The notes beneath the pieces are model-generated. The model did no database searches. It was not told the DNA's origin and was given only the letters and a program-made list of their open reading frames with translations. This document shows positions 11,186 to 17,996 of a stretch of DNA of 64,000 nt, piece by piece (position 1 is the stretch's first letter; every line of letters starts with the position of its first letter). Where the stretch lies: positions 310,001-374,000 of the forward strand of contig CAMHMZ010000001.1 of NCBI GenBank assembly GCA_946186375.1. The letters are read 5' to 3'. Made by a program: the position numbers and the translations under genes. This DNA is from an uncultured Clostridia bacterium. Lineage in GTDB: Bacteria > Bacillota > Clostridia > Oscillospirales > Oscillospiraceae.

Positions 11186-11218
11186 GGCACTCTCTTTTTA
11201 AAAGAGAGTGCCATTTTT
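11186..11218 (+). terminator. Terminator after the SSB gene (first of two)
   Basis: GGCACTCTC with the flanking T/A run pairs with GAGAGTGCC, followed by ATTTTTAT. It lies eight bases after the SSB stop. Confidence 0.85.
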
Positions 11219-11224
11219 ATGCGC

Positions 11225-11257
11225 ACGTCTCCGCAAAAGGAGACGTTTTTGTTTTTT
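11225..11257 (+). terminator. Second tandem terminator before the tRNA array
   Basis: ACGTCTCC (11225-11232), loop GCAAAA, GGAGACGT (11239-11246), then TTTTGTTTTTT. Together with the previous hairpin it insulates the tRNA array from the protein operon. Confidence 0.85.
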
Positions 11258-11271
11258 AAAGGCTTTTACAG

Positions 11272-11300
11272 TTGACAAACGCGGCGCGTTATAGTAATAT
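11272..11300 (+). promoter_or_regulatory. Promoter of the tRNA array
   Basis: TTGACA at 11272-11277, a 17-base spacer and TAATAT at 11295-11300. This host-like sigma-A form differs from the TAAAA promoters elsewhere in the element. A nine-pair leader hairpin (GCTGCGAGG with CCTCGCAGC, 11402-11436) lies between it and the first tRNA. Confidence 0.6.
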
Positions 11301-11441
11301 AGTCTTGCGAACGCGGGGTGGTGCCGATGGCGCTATTGAGGCTGTTGTGTTTCCCGGCGTTCATACCCTCCTTTCATTTTTTTCCTCCTTTCTTTTTCAG
11401 CGCTGCGAGGTCGTCTTCTCCTTTCGGCCTCGCAGCAATTT

Positions 11442-11518
11442 GGTCCCTTCGACTAATCGGTTAGGTCACCACCCTTTCACGGTGGCAATGTTGGGTTCGA
11501 ATCCCACAGGGATCACCA
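11442..11518 (+). tRNA. tRNA-Glu(TTC)
   Basis: A full cloverleaf with acceptor GGTCCCT/AGGGATC, anticodon loop CTTTCAC (TTC), a normal T loop TTCGAAT and an encoded CCA. First member of the element's tRNA array. Confidence 0.93.
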
Positions 11519-11915
11519 TCGTCGGCGAGCAAAACATACGCGGCGGTGCACGCGATGCTGTTGTCTGCAGATATCGCACGGTCGGCCACGCACCCTCCTT
11601 TTTTTTGCCGCAGAACCATTCGCCGGCGTCGTGTCGATCTTTTGAGGAACCAGCGCTGTAGCTATGCGCAAAATGCTGTTTGCAGAAACAATGGGACGAA
11701 CATGCACGCAGCACAAACTTCGGTCACGTCCCTTGGCCGAGCTCGTGGAGTTTTGATGGTGTTCATACGAGGTTATTGTTGCAGAAAGGTTAAACCAAGC
11801 ATCTCAAAAAATTTGCCCTTGCGGGGTATTCCCGCTTCTGCACCCAGGCGTTTCTCACGCCATGATTCTTCTCCTTTCTTCTTTTTACGGGAAGGTTTCG
11901 GCCTTCCCAATTTAT
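11519..11915. other. Gap of about 400 nt inside the tRNA array, no gene seen
   Basis: No convincing protein frame with a ribosome binding site. Structure seen: GGGAAGG/CCTTCCC (11890-11909) just before tRNA-Gly, and weaker pairings elsewhere. It may be tRNA precursor spacer or an unrecognised small RNA. Confidence 0.4.
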
Positions 11916-11989
11916 GCGGATGTAGTTCAATGGTAGAATCCCAGCCTTCCAAGCTGGTTATGAGGGTTCGATTCCCTTTATCCGCTCCA
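11916..11989 (+). tRNA. tRNA-Gly(TCC)
   Basis: Acceptor GCGGATG/TATCCGC, anticodon loop CTTCCAA (TCC), T loop TTCGATT, discriminator T and encoded CCA. A normal cloverleaf. Confidence 0.93.
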
Positions 11990-12028
11990 TGATCTAACTC
12001 GCGTGTGCTACGGCACCGCGGGTATCAT

Positions 12029-12104
12029 GCTGGATTAGCTCAGTTGGTAGAGCAGCGCACTTGTAATGCGCAGGTCGTCAGTTCGAGTCTGACATCCAGC
12101 TCCA
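12029..12104 (+). tRNA. tRNA-Thr(TGT)
   Basis: Acceptor GCTGGAT/ATCCAGC, anticodon loop CTTGTAA (TGT), T loop TTCGAGT, discriminator T, encoded CCA. Confidence 0.93.
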
Positions 12105-12107
12105 TAT

Positions 12108-12183
12108 GCTTTCTTAGCTCAGCTGGTAGAGCATGCGGCTGTTAACCGCAGGGTCGTAGGTTCGAGTCCTACAGGAAGCGCCA
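12108..12183 (+). tRNA. tRNA-Asn(GTT)
   Basis: Acceptor GCTTTCT/AGGAAGC with one T-G pair, anticodon loop CTGTTAA (GTT), T loop TTCGAGT, encoded CCA. It begins four bases after tRNA-Thr ends. Confidence 0.93.
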
Positions 12184-12187
12184 TCAT

Positions 12188-12264
<77 letters not shown>

Positions 12265-12311
12265 TCGCTGTGCCAAATGCACCAGCCATTCTTTAAGAAA
12301 GGAGAACAACT

Positions 12312-12596
12312 ATGACCAAGGAAGAGCTTATGCAGGCTGTAGCCGGCAAGGTAAAGCCCGGCGATATTGCCTCGAAGGCCGCGCTGAACCGCGTGTTCAA
12401 CGCTGTGTTCGACGTTATCGCTGAAGATCTGATTGCCGGCAACAACGTGAACATTCCCGGTTTCGGCAGCTTCAAGGTCAAGGAACGCGCTGAGCGCAAG
12501 GCACACAACCTGCAGACCGGCGAAGAAATCATCGTTCCTGCGAGCAAGGCAGCAGTATTCAAGCCCAGCTCGGCCCTCAAGAATGCCGTAAAGTAA
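12312..12596 (+). CDS. HU-family DNA-binding protein inside the tRNA array
   Basis: 94 residues, a standard HU/IHF length. The family signature appears as IPGFGSFKVKERAERKA near residues 50-66, and the DNA-wrapping arm GEEIIVPASKAAVFKPS follows. HU dimers bend and coat DNA. The gene has GAAAGGAGAACAACT before ATG and lies between tRNA-Asp and tRNA-Val in the same direction, so it may be made from the processed array transcript. It is a phage copy, perhaps for packaging or for control of the element's own DNA. Confidence 0.9.
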   Translation: MTKEELMQAVAGKVKPGDIASKAALNRVFNAVFDVIAEDLIAGNNVNIPGFGSFKVKERAERKAHNLQTGEEIIVPASKAAVFKPSSALKNAVK

Positions 12597-12659
12597 AAAT
12601 CAAGATCAAAAAAGATTTATTCCGCCGGTGACGAAGTGCGCCGCTGGCGGTAATAATAT

Positions 12660-12736
12660 AGCGCTATAGCTCAGCTGGTTAGAGCACCTGCCTTACAAGC
12701 AGGGGGTCGCTGGTTCAAGTCCAGTTGGCGCTACCA
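12660..12736 (+). tRNA. tRNA-Val(TAC)
   Basis: Acceptor AGCGCTA/TGGCGCT, anticodon loop CTTACAA (TAC), T loop TTCAAGT, encoded CCA. The start A at 12660 is set by the acceptor pairing. Confidence 0.92.
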
Positions 12737-12882
12737 CCCGCTGCGGTGCCGCATAACCGGCATCGGCATAAGCAGATTTCTGGTGCAAAGGGATCTGTTT
12801 TGGCTGGCGTCCGAAAGGCCGCTGGTCGTGAAAGCTCGGCCGTAAAGGGGCTTCGGCGGCAATGAGAAAGGAAAACTAACCC

Positions 12883-12958
12883 ACCGGTGTAGCTCAGTTG
12901 GCAGAGCGCCGTCTTGATAAGGCGTGGGTCGCTGGATCGTGCCCAGCCACCGGTACCA
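12883..12958 (+). tRNA. tRNA-Ile(GAT) with an aberrant T loop
   Basis: Acceptor ACCGGTG/CACCGGT is perfect, the D arm is normal (AGTTGGCA loop), the anticodon loop is TTGATAA (GAT) and CCA is encoded. The T loop is ATCGTGC instead of TTCRANY: position 54 is A and 58 is T, an exchange of the usual T54-A58 pair. The outer pair of the anticodon stem (C27-T43) is also mismatched. It may be decaying or deliberately non-standard. Confidence 0.75.
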
Positions 12959-13300
12959 AACGCTCCAGGAGCTCGCCCCTCCTGGCCGACGACCGAGCGT
13001 ATGTCCAATATCCGCGGAATTCGAAGTGCTGAAGGCCAAGGTGCTTCGCCACGTTTGGACTTTCGGAGGTTAAATTTTGGCTAACAAGCCAACCTGTGAA
13101 TTGGTACGGACCACCAATCCTGGTGCCATAAGAGCGTCGAAGTCTTATGGCCGAAGGGGAACGGGCGCGTTGGCGAACGGCGGCCTCGACGCGGTCGGAT
13201 ATGCGTTCAAAAGCTGGCACGAAAGCCACGGAAGCTGCTGGGCCTTATTGGCATCGGGCTTCAAAAAAGGCCACATTGGCGAGTAAAAGCAAGAATATGC
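12959..13300 (+). other. Hairpin-rich gap between tRNA-Ile and tRNA-Ala
   Basis: Consecutive hairpins are visible: CCAGGAG/CTCCTGG (12965-12985), TTGGCT/AGCCAA (13077-13092), CACCA/TGGTG (13112-13125), CCATAAGA/TCTTATGG (13126-13150) and CGCGT/ACGCG (13166-13193) inside CCGA/TCGG. A 69-codon frame from TTG 13077 with GGAGG at 13065 also exists, but its start lies in a hairpin. A structured RNA seems more likely than a protein, and neither is proven. Confidence 0.35.
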
Positions 13301-13326
13301 CGTAGCTCGCTTGGTGGCCACTTCAC

Positions 13327-13402
13327 GGGGGATTAGCTCAGCTGGGAGAGCGCCTGATTTGCATTCAGGAGGTCAGCGGTTCGATCCCGCTATCCTCCAC
13401 CA
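13327..13402 (+). tRNA. tRNA-Ala(TGC)
   Basis: Acceptor GGGGGAT/ATCCTCC, anticodon loop TTTGCAT (TGC), T loop TTCGATC, encoded CCA. A normal cloverleaf. Confidence 0.93.
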
Positions 13403-13407
13403 AAACG

Positions 13408-13528
13408 GATTACCGCACAGACGTGTCAAGACGGAGTGAAACCGTGCATTCGTGGCAAACCTACCGTGCGGATGAAATTGACCTTTCCGAGGGATTAAGT
13501 AGGAAACAGGGTGAAGATTGCGGTAATC
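13408..13528 (+). other. Inverted repeat with two competing pairings between tRNA-Ala and tRNA-Met
   Basis: GATTACCGCA (13408-13417) is the exact complement of TGCGGTAATC (13519-13528). The inner part CCGCAC (13413-13418) can instead pair with GTGCGG (13466-13471). The two folds exclude each other. No protein gene is seen in this gap. Confidence 0.4.
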
Positions 13529-13544
13529 TTGTTTAAAAAAATAT

Positions 13545-13619
13545 TGCGAGGTAGAGCAGTGGTAGCTCAGCGGCCTCATAAGCCGTGTGTCGTGGGTTCA
13601 AACCCCACCCCCGCAACCA
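13545..13619 (+). tRNA. tRNA-Met(CAT), initiator-like
   Basis: Anticodon loop CTCATAA and T loop TTCAAAC, ending CCCCGCA-A-CCA. The D stem is GAGC/GCTC, giving the purine-11/pyrimidine-24 pair typical of bacterial initiator tRNA, and the whole resembles tRNA-fMet rather than elongator tRNA-Met. Differences from the standard initiator are T1-A72 instead of the C1-A72 mismatch, an A5-C68 mismatch, and GGC/GCC instead of GGG/CCC at the base of the anticodon stem. Confidence 0.85.
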
Positions 13620-13644
13620 CGTCATCTTGCAGCGGCGACGATCG

Positions 13645-13674
13645 AAAATAGGAGACGGTTCTCCTGTATTTTTT
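13645..13674 (+). terminator. Likely terminator of the tRNA array
   Basis: AATAGGAGA, loop CGGT, TCTCCTGTATT with a small bulge, then TTTTTT. It follows 26 bases after the initiator-like tRNA. Confidence 0.6.
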
Positions 13675-13721
13675 ACCGGAGGGCGAAACACTAATTTATA
13701 TGTACAATGTCGCTGAGATGA

Positions 13722-14273
13722 GAAAACGCTTGACCGGCGCGCTATAGGTCAAAACAAGTTTTCCGAGCGTTGACGCGTTTCATGGAAATTGTGGGACTGT
13801 TGGACCAGGTACCATACCAGATGCGCGTGTTAGGAGGATAACTTTTCACATGCAGCAGTAGCTCAACTTCAGAGCGTCGATCATATCGATCGGAGGCAAC
13901 AGGAAAACGCCTGTCTGCTGCTCCACGGTAAGGTTCGGCCGCAGTGGTTTTGTATTCGGGTGTGGCACGAAGGGTATGAAACCGCAAATCGAACCTCCGA
14001 GGTGAGATAATTCTGCCAGCCACGGCGCTCACCAAAACGCGCGGGATCCGCGCCGTGCAGATGTTCTGCAAGTGTGTTCTTGATCTGCAAACATAGCTGC
14101 AAACGAGTAATGCAGCGGCAAAAATTGCGGCAATAGATCAGTTCGCAAAGGATGCCGGGCGGAGGTCGGCGTAAAGCTTGGTATGCGAGGTAAAGTTGGC
14201 CCATTGCTAAACTGTGAGGAGAAGGTAAATCCGACCGAGTCGATCTCCGCCTATTATGTCACCTACGTTTGCG
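13722..14273 (+). ncRNA. Candidate large structured RNA next to the phage tRNA array
   Basis: No protein gene lies in 13620-14428. Many exact helices occur in order: AAAAC/GTTTT around TTGACC/GGTCAA (13730-13752); ACGCG/CGCGT (13773-13828); a tRNA-shaped domain (13852-13925); AGGTTCG/CGAACCT around GTGGTTT/AAACCGC (13931-13996); GGTGAG/CTCACC and CACGGCGC/GCGCCGTG (14001-14057); TGATCT/AGATCA enclosing GCTGCA/TGCAGC and GCAA/TTGC (14081-14140); CGCAAA/TTTGCG enclosing GGCGGAG/CTCCGCC and GTCGG/CCGAC (14144-14273). Size, phage setting and tRNA neighbours fit the ornate large RNAs called ROOL and GOLLD; membership is inferred, not shown. Confidence 0.55.
13852..13925 (+). other. tRNA-shaped domain lacking canonical loops
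   Basis: Four stems are complete: acceptor GCAGCAG/CTGCTGC, D stem GCTC/GAGC, anticodon stem TCGAT/ATCGG, T stem ACAGG/CCTGT, then T and CCA. The loops are wrong for translation: the D loop AACTTCA lacks GG, the anticodon loop CATATCG lacks T at position 33, and the T loop is six bases (AAAACG) without TTC. It lies inside the structured RNA region and may be a tRNA mimic or a domain of that RNA. Confidence 0.55.
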
Positions 14274-14284
14274 TACAAAGTAGT

Positions 14285-14339
14285 TTGACAAACACAACTG
14301 AATATAATATAATAGTAACAGTTGGGAGCACCAACTGTT
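14285..14339 (+). promoter_or_regulatory. Consensus promoter with a palindrome at the transcription start
   Basis: TTGACA (14285-14290), 17 bases, TATAAT (14308-14313): a perfect sigma-A promoter. AACAGTTGG (14317-14325) and CCAACTGTT (14331-14339) form a nine-pair inverted repeat over the expected start site, followed by TTTCTTTT. It could be an operator, a 5' hairpin or an immediate terminator. The next gene starts at 14429. Confidence 0.8.
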
Positions 14340-14428
14340 TCTTTTGCGTTCTGCTGACATACACAACGCGTTTTAGTTGTTTTGTACAAATGGTCAGCAC
14401 AGCGCACATCTAGCGTGGTGAGTTTTAT

Positions 14429-14716
14429 ATGATTGATGATGAAGATTACATCTCATTAAGAGCACATACGGTATGGTACGCGATTTTTGAATATGCGCGC
14501 ATTATTTTGCCGATCATCATGATGTTATATAAGCTTTGCCAAGTAGCAAACAAAACAGTGGTACCGACCGGGAAGATGTTCATATTCACGTTTCTTGGAT
14601 GCTTGGCTATATATGGTCTTTGCACGATAGGGAAGTACGTGGTTTTGATAAGTTGGATGAGGATCCAAGAATACAAACAGCAGGTCGCAGAGCAGACAAA
14701 GCTCTGGAAAAAGTAG
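14429..14716 (+). CDS. Small membrane protein of the phage element (95 aa)
   Basis: Begins at ATG 14429 after GGTGAG. Two hydrophobic segments (about residues 20-40 and 48-72) predict two membrane helices, followed by a charged tail ending in Lys. The family is not recognised. It is the first gene behind the strong promoter at 14285, so it may be expressed in the integrated state; a role in exclusion or holin-like action is only a guess. Confidence 0.65.
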   Translation: MIDDEDYISLRAHTVWYAIFEYARIILPIIMMLYKLCQVANKTVVPTGKMFIFTFLGCLAIYGLCTIGKYVVLISWMRIQEYKQQVAEQTKLWKK

Positions 14717-14759
14717 TAGCGCCTGCATAATCGGAATTTACGACACTGGAGCGAAAAGT

Positions 14760-15638
14760 ATGGGTATTAAAGAAGCATATATCGATCAAGAAAAGTTTGA
14801 GCGCGGCGACGGTAAGGCTTGGGGGCTTCCGAAGAACTCAATCATCTCTGACGCGGGGCGCCTGATTGTAGAAAATGAACCGAACATCACAGACGAAACG
14901 CTCAATCTTCTGATTGAAACCGACTGGGCTTTGATCAAAGACGAGGACAGAAACGACATCCTCGCGCTGTCAAAGAAGGAGCTTGCACTCAAGGTGTTTT
15001 ACGAAAACAGCGAGATCGGCCTTGCTCATGTGGCTCAGTGCATCAAAGATGATCTGAACCAGCCGCTTGGTGAGCTGATCGGTCGTTATTCATATGAGCG
15101 CCGCATCCCGTACCTTCAGGGAGCGATCTACATCAAAGCATTGACGGAAGTTCAGAAGCTGTTCTACTACACTTATTCGCCTGACGCAGGTTATCGGCGC
15201 GTTGTGTGGACGCCTGTGGAAGCGTACATTCCTCCGGCTGTGATCGCACCCCCTGAGAAAAAGAAACGCAGGATCAGGAAAAAGCCTTTAACTTCCATTC
15301 CGGAGTCTCCGACTTTTGAGCTTTATGCTTGCCCGATATGCAGTCATCCTGCGAGGTTATTCCGTTGCGGCAAAAATAGTCGTCTCTGGCATGTGTGCTG
15401 CATGGATCCGCAGCGAGAGTGCGACAATTTTGCCGGTCTGGCACCGTCGAAGACGGAGAAGCAGGCGGCTATAGCATGGAACGAATACGTGAAGAGCGTC
15501 GTAGACGACCCCATCTGGTCCAAGGACGCAATCATGTTTGAGTATGCGGATGCTGCTGATGATGATACAACTTCTGCTGAAGCTTCGAACGCATTTGTCG
15601 CCGAAAAAGCAGAAAAAGCAGAAAATAACGCCCTCTGA
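14760..15638 (+). CDS. Phage protein with a C-terminal Lar-like zinc finger
   Basis: 292 residues from ATG 14760. The C-terminal part (about 185-240) reads as a four-cysteine domain: CPIC, then CC and C in VCCMDPQRECDNFAG, then KTEKQAAIAWNEYV. The 'aW...N' ending after the cysteines is typical of Lar-type restriction alleviation and related phage finger proteins. The N-terminal 170 residues are helical and unassigned. No restriction genes are seen nearby, so the function is inferred from the fold only. Confidence 0.6.
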   Translation: MGIKEAYIDQEKFERGDGKAWGLPKNSIISDAGRLIVENEPNITDETLNLLIETDWALIKDEDRNDILALSKKELALKVFYENSEIGLAHVAQCIKDDLNQPLGELIGRYSYERRIPYLQGAIYIKALTEVQKLFYYTYSPDAGYRRVVWTPVEAYIPPAVIAPPEKKKRRIRKKPLTSIPESPTFELYACPICSHPARLFRCGKNSRLWHVCCMDPQRECDNFAGLAPSKTEKQAAIAWNEYVKSVVDDPIWSKDAIMFEYADAADDDTTSAEASNAFVAEKAEKAENNAL

Positions 15639-16653: not shown

Positions 16654-17889
16654 ATGACGGCACAAAAGAATTTACAGTCTTCTTCTTTACCTTTGAGCGA
16701 TCTCATGTTATTATCACAGAGTGGTAGCATCGGAAGCGCCGTGGTAGAGGAGATGCTCAAAAAAGCGAAGAAAACCTATGTTGAATCTCGCCACAATCAA
16801 GCGATTAGCCAGATGCGGTCGACAAACAAATACAAAAACGGCAAATGGAAAACCTATTATGTGGGTGACACCGGCAGGAAGGAGATCATTCGGGATTCTG
16901 AGGAAGCCATTTATGAAACACTGTTTGAACTATACAAGCAGCGTGAAAATCGCCCGGCAACGGTAGAAGATGTGTTTAATGCACTCATGGAAAGAAAGCG
17001 CGATCAGCTTGGAAGAAGTCAAAACACGATAGACGATTCGACTCGATACTTCTCATATATCAGCGACGCAATCAAGAAAAAGCCGATTGCAGAAGTTGCA
17101 GAGTCGGATTTGAGGAAATGGTTTGTCAAATCATACATGCCGACGATGCCGAGAGAGCAGGCCTTGCGCAAGATGCTGCAGCTGCTAAAGCAGATTTTCA
17201 GGTACGGCATGCAGATGAAGGTGTGTTTTAGCAACCCGGCGGAATACATCTTATTTGACGACTACGCAAAAGATTGTAATCTCCAAAAAAAGACAGATGA
17301 AGAACGCGCTTTTTCAAAAGAGGAAATTAAACTGCTGACAAACTATGCGTTGACCCGTCCGCAAAACCCGCGAGCAGTGATGTCGATTTTTGCTGCTGAA
17401 ACAGGAATGCGTGTTGGCGAAATGCCGGCCCTGTTATGGGATGATATTTCTGACGAGTACATTCATGTACATAGACAGCAAATCATGGAGAAAGCTTCAA
17501 GAGTCTTTTCCGAGGTAAGCTATACAAAAGATGAGAGGAAACACCCTCATAATGGCCGGATGGTTCCTATAACGAAAGGAATTAAGCAGGCATTGTCTTT
17601 AGCAAAAACGCTTCCTGGAGAATCCAAGTATGTGTTCCATGACAAAAACGGCCTCCCAATCACGAAGGAATCTTACGCACACTATTTGACGAGGGCGTGC
17701 AAAAAACTCGGCATACAGATTTCAAACAATCATGCATATCGCATAGCTTTCAACTCAAGGATGATAGAGTGCGGGTTGTCACCAGCGGATCGAGCTTTAA
17801 TTCTTGGACACGCGGTGCAAACGAACGAGCATCATTACTCAGTGTCAGACAAACGACGTTTGGCTGATATCAAAAGTAAAATGCTATAA
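16654..17889 (+). CDS. Tyrosine recombinase (integrase)
   Basis: 411 residues. The N-terminus has a DNA-binding region, a core-binding SAM-like domain lies at about 110-200, and the catalytic domain runs from about 220. Catalytic residues are seen in order: Arg in GMRVGE near 253, HxxR in HAYR near 361, His in GHAVQ near 386 and Tyr in HHYSV near 395. It integrates and excises the element by site-specific recombination. It lies 30 bases from tRNA-Arg, next to the repeated tRNA segments that mark the attachment site. Confidence 0.92.
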   Translation: MTAQKNLQSSSLPLSDLMLLSQSGSIGSAVVEEMLKKAKKTYVESRHNQAISQMRSTNKYKNGKWKTYYVGDTGRKEIIRDSEEAIYETLFELYKQRENRPATVEDVFNALMERKRDQLGRSQNTIDDSTRYFSYISDAIKKKPIAEVAESDLRKWFVKSYMPTMPREQALRKMLQLLKQIFRYGMQMKVCFSNPAEYILFDDYAKDCNLQKKTDEERAFSKEEIKLLTNYALTRPQNPRAVMSIFAAETGMRVGEMPALLWDDISDEYIHVHRQQIMEKASRVFSEVSYTKDERKHPHNGRMVPITKGIKQALSLAKTLPGESKYVFHDKNGLPITKESYAHYLTRACKKLGIQISNNHAYRIAFNSRMIECGLSPADRALILGHAVQTNEHHYSVSDKRRLADIKSKML

Positions 17890-17891
17890 AA

Positions 17892-17920
17892 AAACAGGAG
17901 ACTGTCCAAGTCTCCTGTTT
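17892..17920. terminator. Bidirectional terminator between integrase and tRNA-Arg
   Basis: AACAGGAGACT and AGTCTCCTGTT with a five-base loop. The minus strand ends in seven T, so it terminates tRNA-Arg; the plus strand has a shorter T run after the integrase stop. It touches the encoded CCA of the tRNA. Confidence 0.85.
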
Positions 17921-17996
17921 GGCACCCACGAGAGGATTCGAACCTCCGACTTCACGCTTAGGAGGCGTGCGCTCTATCCTGCTGAGCTACGTGGGC
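17920..17996 (-). tRNA. tRNA-Arg(CCT), complete copy next to the integrase
   Basis: On the minus strand: acceptor GCCCACG/CGTGGGT, discriminator G, encoded CCA, anticodon loop CTCCTAA (CCT), T loop TTCGAAT. It lies downstream of the host promoter at 18160-18188 and of a broken 5' copy (18090-18131), so it is probably supplied by the element to replace the disrupted host gene. Confidence 0.92.

Follow-up and report, generated by a model that had tools for sequence, protein, structure and literature searches.

A putative non-decoding tRNA-Gly-like cloverleaf among candidate structured spacers at the 3′ end of a tRNA array in a predicted giant conjugative-type integrated element

We analyzed a 64,000-nt window of DNA from an uncultured Clostridia bacterium (C1:310001-374000, i.e., the forward strand of contig CAMHMZ010000001.1; coordinates without a prefix are in window numbering). 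Positions 1 to ~17,900 of the window are predicted to belong to a single integrated conjugative-type element, which would span C1 1 to ~328,000, measure at least ~328 kb and have its left end beyond the contig. We read this region as one element because of a step in GC content, which in 10-kb bins is 0.47-0.51 across C1 1 to 330,000 and 0.56-0.585 thereafter, and because a tyrosine integrase gene (16654..17889, plus strand; PF00589) ends beside a tRNA-Arg(CCT) gene (17920..17996, minus strand; called by ARAGORN) that marks the element-chromosome border, alongside which the GC of the 10-kb bins goes from 0.51 to 0.585. A left partner of an att repeat at this tRNA-Arg border was not found inside C1 250001-374000. 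The element encodes a conjugative coupling protein (PF02534), a TraG-type P-loop ATPase and a ParA-type ATPase, along with the CRISPR genes Cas3 and Cse1, a CCA-adding-type enzyme, very large ORFs and three HEARO RNAs (by Rfam, with C1 290001-310000 outside that scan). Besides the border tRNA-Arg it carries 39 tRNAs, of which 26 are in array 1 (C1 11180-16154), nine in array 2 and four elsewhere. The initial annotation had spoken of a phage tRNA array; the array under study sits instead in this giant conjugative-type integrated element and not in an ordinary phage. In array 1, a class II tRNA-like sequence with a TTCGATT T-loop (C1:15834-15924) is uncalled by ARAGORN and scores 17.4 bits with a model of the element's tRNAs, and C1:12553-12663, considered as a second tRNA mimic, was rejected as the tRNA model has no match there at E up to 10.

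Array 2 (11442..13619, plus strand) comprises nine tRNAs (ARAGORN), an HU gene (12312-12596; PF00216) and a 69-aa ORF (13077-13286), which has a TTG start behind GGAGG, a weak coding score of +0.11 and no Pfam match. A promoter-like site with 10 of 12 consensus letters lies upstream of the array (11272..11300, plus strand), and there are six promoter-like sites in 11200-14800 versus 2.8 in shuffles. From the terminal tRNA-Met to the next ORF extends an 809-nt non-coding stretch (13620..14428, plus strand), which includes 13722-14273, the part singled out by the initial annotation. A pattern scan locates a terminator-like hairpin of 8 pairs followed by ATTTTTTA at 13648..13667 (plus strand), 28 nt past tRNA-Met, which might end transcription before 13722-14273; in the fold of the surrounding spacer it is replaced by the helix 13658-13664/13678-13684. 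At the far end there is a perfect sigma-70-type promoter (14285..14313, plus strand; TTGACA, 17, TATAAT; 12 of 12 consensus letters), which probably serves the downstream ORFs, and a hairpin with a T-rich tail (14317..14339, plus strand; pattern scan; z -3.0 for 14318-14350), possibly the terminator of the array transcript or a leader hairpin of the next gene.

The claim that no protein gene is present here was borne out. The in-frame hexamer scores for 13620-14300 are negative in all six frames (-0.05 to -0.53), compared with +0.22 for 15684, +0.52 for 14760, +0.66 for 9190, +0.73 for HU and +0.25 for ORF 14429, and the three longest ORFs are Pfam-negative. Two of these ORFs are on the minus strand (13742-14071 and 13881-14204), with hexamer scores of -0.08 and -0.39 and no Pfam matches at E 0.01; the plus-strand ORF 14183-14413, which likewise lacks a Pfam match, scores +0.18 and may encode a small peptide. 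Across the whole window tRNAs are the sole Rfam matches at the gathering threshold, and the stretch contains no rRNA-like pieces detectable by comparison with E. coli rRNA (plus strand) or by the SSU and LSU models.

Within the stretch we found a tRNA-like cloverleaf with an encoded CCA (13852..13925, plus strand), uncalled by ARAGORN, to which the Rfam tRNA model gives 31.3 bits (cut-off 29) in a scan of 101 bases. With a model trained on 27 of the element's own class I tRNAs, its score is 38.3 bits (E 2.6e-9). On that scale, the scanned stretches include 24 of the 27 model tRNAs, whose scores of 60.7-86.1 are partly due to their use in the model; outside the model, the array 1 tRNA-Glu(TTC) scores 53.4 bits and the class II tRNAs 26.2-43.9, and the maximum in a 20-kb control stretch of the element is 9.8 bits. 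The nearest of the 27 tRNAs to the cloverleaf is tRNA-Gly(CCC) (C1:15518-15593), with an alignment score of 23.5 against 15.5 for the runner-up. The two are alike in the first 15 nt of the cloverleaf, which are identical and cover strands of the acceptor and D stems, in the D stem and in the TCCA 3′ end; they differ in the anticodon and T stems, which are altered in the cloverleaf with their pairing preserved, and in the loss of three loop motifs. Despite eight stem substitutions, 21 of 21 pairs are preserved (three compensatory double and two single changes), an outcome that eight randomly placed substitutions would yield with a probability of 5e-5. The D-, anticodon- and T-loop motifs are gone: the anticodon loop reads CATATCG without U33, the D-loop AACTTCA without GG and the six-nucleotide T-loop AAAACG without TTC, so of the features of a functional tRNA it has the cloverleaf and the CCA end. 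It also carries G1-C72, C2-G71 and the discriminator U73, which we take to be glycine identity signals.

Judged by its sequence, the cloverleaf is derived from, or shares a common ancestor with, the tRNA-Gly(CCC) of the element; it is one copy in one element, with the ancestor read from a paralogue, and it could alternatively be the decaying copy of some other tRNA-Gly that had these stems. The preservation of the stems with replacement of the loops appears unlike the course expected of neutral decay. Folded alone, the cloverleaf reaches -27.9 kcal/mol (z -3.2) and gains a sixth pair that narrows the anticodon loop to 5 nt; of its arms, the minimum-energy fold of the whole stretch contains the T-arm only, and the minimum-energy helices that use 13851-13898 are incompatible with the cloverleaf, which has comparative support. 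Among weaker tRNA matches from five viral arrays (27, hand-picked from 173), 21 fit a loose TTC 3′ pattern, which can be satisfied outside the T-loop, and six have T-loop-like letters there that read like TGCAAGT or CTCAACT; by this comparison the T-loop of the cloverleaf is unusual. Staphylococci have a non-proteinogenic tRNA-Gly with altered D- and T-loops that is kept from translation and whose usual user is FemAB. The cloverleaf resembles it as kin of tRNA-Gly with altered D- and T-loops; FemAB, a possible user of a tRNA-Gly mimic, was not found in the present genome, which is incomplete.

The cloverleaf divides the stretch into flanks with candidate RNA domains of their own. On the 5′ side, spacer A (13620..13851, plus strand) is predicted to form a domain at 13622-13721, whose closing helices TCATCT/AGATGA and CAGCGGCG/TGTCGCTG have mean pair probabilities of 0.87-0.94, followed by smaller hairpins. 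On the 3′ side, spacer B has a hairpin domain (13931..13996, plus strand) with 8-pair and 14-pair helices (mean pair probabilities 0.95 and 0.99), the support for which is thermodynamic. The three-way arrangement that the initial annotation described (14081..14140, plus strand) is present in the sequence with all its named helices, closed by TGATCT/AGATCA with GCTGCA/TGCAGC and GCAA/TTGC within, and of these helices the minimum-energy fold retains the GCTGCA/TGCAGC arm only. The long-range closing helices were likewise located in the sequence, namely CGCAAA/TTTGCG (14144-14149/14268-14273) and a 14-pair helix that includes G-T pairs (14157-14170/14239-14252); the latter closes a domain at 14157..14252 (plus strand) with a mean pair probability of 0.97 and a z of -2.6 (14156-14254).

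To calibrate these helices, we counted exact helices with arms at most 150 nt apart in 13722-14273, in 40 shuffles and in 40 element segments of equal length. There are 22 helices of at least 6 pairs (shuffle mean 13.1), 70 at 5 pairs (51.7 in shuffles) and 7 at 7 pairs (2.75 in shuffles), values reached by none of the 40 shuffles, and a single helix at 8 pairs versus 0.9 in shuffles (reached by 26 of 40), i.e., no excess. The helices exceed shuffles at 5-7 pairs, but the counts are matched by background segments of the element (6 of 40 at 5 pairs, 5 of 40 at 6 pairs and 11 of 40 at 7 pairs). The fold z of the 681-nt stretch is -3.5, -2.6 or -3.8 (with 20, 60 or 40 shuffles, respectively), and equally low values are seen in 25% of 60 control segments from the element. 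The stretch has a mean z of -0.90 in 120-nt windows, versus -0.74 element-wide, and a 720-nt run across it takes rank 1751 of 5455 when sorted by z and rank 1217 when sorted by energy difference. After these controls we dropped fold stability as evidence for a structured RNA, and as both helix counts and fold energy are ordinary for the element, the helices by themselves prove nothing.

The initial annotation had proposed a relative of ROOL or GOLLD. ROOL RNA is often close to tRNA islands, is an abundant transcript and forms an octameric cage; GOLLD env-38 lies downstream of a tRNA-Met, and the GOLLD linker can contain tRNAs (PMC12286853). These large RNAs beside tRNA arrays have no known function (PMC12286853). 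Where ROOL is expected near tRNA islands of phages or prophages, the stretch lies directly 3′ of a nine-tRNA array, but in a conjugative-type element and not an ordinary phage. It resembles GOLLD in its tRNA island setting, with a tRNA-Met upstream and a tRNA-like structure within (a likeness to the setting described in PMC12286853). It differs from both in that it has no model match, and from GOLLD also in having no recognizable counterpart of the universally conserved 3′ region. Membership in either family was not upheld: the Rfam models for ROOL and GOLLD have no match at gathering across the window, and permissive scans of 3601 and 761 bases (E up to 10) were equally negative. The latter two scans also failed to list the 31-bit cloverleaf, which was revealed just by the 101-base scan; therefore, a very divergent ROOL or GOLLD relative could escape, and the negative result holds at the sensitivity of the filters.

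Searches for homologues of the stretch were also negative. At E 1e-3 no DNA match was found in 59 relatives besides the genome itself; the 23 source records of the collected loci had none, blastn and nhmmer against those loci gave nothing beyond short matches read as chance, and three exact patterns from the stretch have no match in viral contigs. Phages provided a single 31-nt match (E 3), plasmids 59 Enterococcus records with one common stretch of ~30 nt (E 0.8-9), and 394 genomes of the order numerous alignments ~18-53 nt long (E up to 1), all of which we read as chance; the sole match at or below 1e-3 in the 394-genome search, besides the genome itself, is 22 nt long (E 6.8e-4). Among the collected loci, 13926-14300 aligned with L114 at E 0.097 and, in nhmmer, with L257 at E 0.92, and 13620-13851 aligned with L236 at E 0.15; these too were dismissed as chance. 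The neighboring proteins have no viral relatives by exact peptides, and none in genome contigs either. An alignment of the RecD-like protein led to 43 viral loci, of which 27 were scanned; 24 of these are free of tRNAs and none has more than two. The HD-domain protein led to 16 loci, of which just L030 encodes another of the 17 window proteins compared. The 14760 gene is common to four of the 101 other genomes of the genus. Where the SSB-like and 14760 genes are close neighbors, as in the syntenic L076 and L078, the distance between their matched portions is 389 nt in the former and 635 nt in the latter, so these loci are without the cassette of tRNAs and RNA. L030, L077, L078 and L079 are free of ARAGORN tRNA calls; L076 has two, which lie beyond its integrase match.

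A spacer one tRNA upstream of the stretch, between tRNA-Ala and tRNA-Met (13403..13544, plus strand), has a long terminal closing helix and a relative in a viral tRNA array. This is L231:13048-13192 on the minus strand, between tRNA-Lys and tRNA-Val in an IMG/VR contig locus with 31 tRNAs, with 69% identity across 119 nt; in a comparison with 165 loci its blastn E is 2.7e-8, and nhmmer gives E 3.3e-6. In the closing helix and one inner helix, 13 of 13 pairs are kept with five double changes; partners slid out of register are at most 38.5% paired, and the observed value is reached in 18 of 500 shuffles, which as a control has low power with two rows. The fold z is -1.8 for the window copy and -0.10 for the L231 copy, the minimum-energy fold of which omits the shared closing helix; the evidence for this spacer is therefore the covariation in two sequences, which supports its being a structured RNA. 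Exact patterns identified no further relatives in genome contigs and L231 alone in viral contigs, and blastn of 13620-14440 against C1 1-374000 (E up to 0.5) found no similarity to this spacer. More generally, cognate spacer ends in the arrays pair better than non-cognate ones (mean -14.4 versus -11.9 kcal/mol; permutation p 0.005) in a set of 12 of the 19 listed spacers, chosen as mostly non-coding, one of which contains the 69-aa ORF. By description, such spacers are akin to the stable RNAs C and D of T4, which are structured non-tRNA RNAs in its tRNA cluster, i.e., within a phage tRNA operon.

Two other spacers of the 31-tRNA array of L231 are of note. One, at L231:7261-7401 on the minus strand, is a cow-rumen-3 RNA (RF03083); the likeness to the present locus is that this RNA is a spacer in the very array that holds the relative of 13403-13544, and the difference is that the window has no match to its model at gathering. 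The other is a tRNA-Met/tRNA-Glu spacer of 458-538 nt common to two arrays of one IMG/VR contig (L231:8650-9187 and L257:14426-14883, both on the minus strand). Its consensus, fitted to these two rows, has 39 pairs with four double and two single changes; the L231 copy contains an open frame of 91 codons, and a profile of the two copies, searched at E up to 1, has no hit in C1 1-374000.

We read the stretch, with middling confidence, as the 3′ part of a tRNA operon with a non-decoding tRNA-Gly mimic among structured spacers; the spacers on either side of the mimic belong to the type found throughout both arrays, some of which are structured. The structured-RNA reading of the initial annotation survives in part: the stretch is non-coding and structured-looking, ends a tRNA array, contains a remodelled tRNA and has the covarying spacer 13403-13544 one tRNA upstream, but membership in ROOL or GOLLD is not supported. 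Counterpoints to the operon reading include that the searches found no homologue for the flanks of the cloverleaf and that their fold stability is ordinary for the element. Under this operon reading, the array would be transcribed from upstream; RNase P and 3′-processing enzymes could then cut the tRNAs and the cloverleaf and so free the mimic and the flanking RNAs; and the mimic might bind tRNA-binding host proteins without entering translation, the most likely partners being glycyl-tRNA synthetase or tRNA-processing enzymes. The stretch probably carries no single ROOL- or GOLLD-like RNA. That it is instead a single ornate RNA of ~600-700 nt, similar in kind to ROOL and GOLLD though not in sequence, perhaps homo-oligomeric, and with the tRNA-like structure embedded as one of its domains, we consider unlikely, though not strikingly so. 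Its position 3′ of tRNA-Met with an embedded tRNA-like structure does recall GOLLD env-38 and the tRNAs of the GOLLD linker (as described in PMC12286853), its helices exceed shuffles at 5-7 pairs, and the tRNA-Met/tRNA-Glu slot of the L231 contig holds a long spacer common to two arrays. Against it, no one closing helix has support, the fold is no more stable than is usual in the element, neither a homologue nor covariation nor an Rfam match was found, and the shared L231/L257 spacer is itself unmatched in C1 1-374000 and has the 91-codon frame in its L231 copy. A divergent member of ROOL or GOLLD proper, for which the genomic setting is the one argument, is extremely improbable, the covariance models being silent down to E 10 within their filter limits.

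The most skeptical explanation, a functionless pseudo-tRNA amid degenerating array spacers, draws on the lack of relatives of the flanks in the searches made and on the syntenic L076 and L078, which do not have the cassette. We nevertheless regard it as decidedly unlikely, since neutral decay should break stems and none of the 21 pairs is broken despite eight stem substitutions and changes in all three loops. The perfect promoter at 14285-14313 and the hairpin at 14317-14339, just 5′ of ORF 14429, could alternatively suggest that the stretch is an untranslated leader or regulatory region of the genes from 14429 onward; however, the promoter is downstream of 13722-14273, which accordingly falls outside its transcript, and the tRNA-like structure would be left unexplained, making this reading very unlikely.

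Outside the window, an array 1 spacer holds a mimic of the 23S rRNA GTPase center (C1:12876-13153, equivalent to L069:2876-3153), which is split by an insert and has a covarying closing helix. The spacer (C1:12839-13309) contains GAAGGTTGGCTTAGAGGCAGCCATCCTTTAAAGA, which aligns with E. coli 23S 1052-1088 at 86% identity across 37 nt (E 1.1e-5), and is matched by the LSU model at its positions 1094-1147 (E 3.3e-7; 29.9 bits, cut-off 50); the second half of the mimic, TTTGGCGTAACAGCACACC, follows some 220 nt further on. In the genome itself the 3′ pattern occurs once, at C1:13135, and the LSU model matches at C1:12880 only; both the 3′ pattern and the LSU model show the split halves to be absent from 13620-14300. 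This piece of 23S rRNA is, we presume, the binding site of ribosomal protein L11 and thiostrepton. The mimic is also present in L127, L128, 74 of L129-L208, L250 and L251, with a core of 101-414 nt in total. A degenerate second half is found in at least 120 stretches of viral contigs; among the matches listed, which cover 80 loci, 74 have the first half (with at most three errors) within 700 nt upstream, and a tRNA lies within 500 nt in 38 and within 1.5 kb in 45, with none in the locus in 31. In 64 distinct rows, 4.34 of 5 positions of the outer helix are paired versus 2.85 with shuffled partners, taking the best of three offsets both ways, and none of 2000 shuffles reaches the observed value. 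Rfam 15 at gathering has no match for the element's mimic or for five loci carrying it, and a literature search by title and start of abstract, with most subscription journals outside its scope, returned no description of such a mimic or array RNA.

A cloverleaf that keeps its fold and has lost its decoding parts, together with a covarying neighbor spacer, suggests that the spaces between tRNAs are a store of functional RNAs, and the GTPase-center mimic offers a concrete and directly testable molecular target, presumably the L11 site. By way of speculation, in which we place little confidence, we posit that the arrays of the element carry a set of RNAs acting as decoys of the translation machinery, comprising the tRNA-Gly mimic, the GTPase-center mimic common to many viral contigs and the closed spacers, which would be freed by tRNA processing and bind host synthetases, L11 or stringent-response factors, thereby steering host translation or alarms for the benefit of the element. 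Both halves of the GTPase-center mimic are additionally found in two of 393 other genomes of the order. Xanthomonas phage XacN1 has both as well, and so does Pseudomonas phage pf16, where they lie between tRNAs; a search with the first half matched further large phages, its 63 records including true 23S genes.
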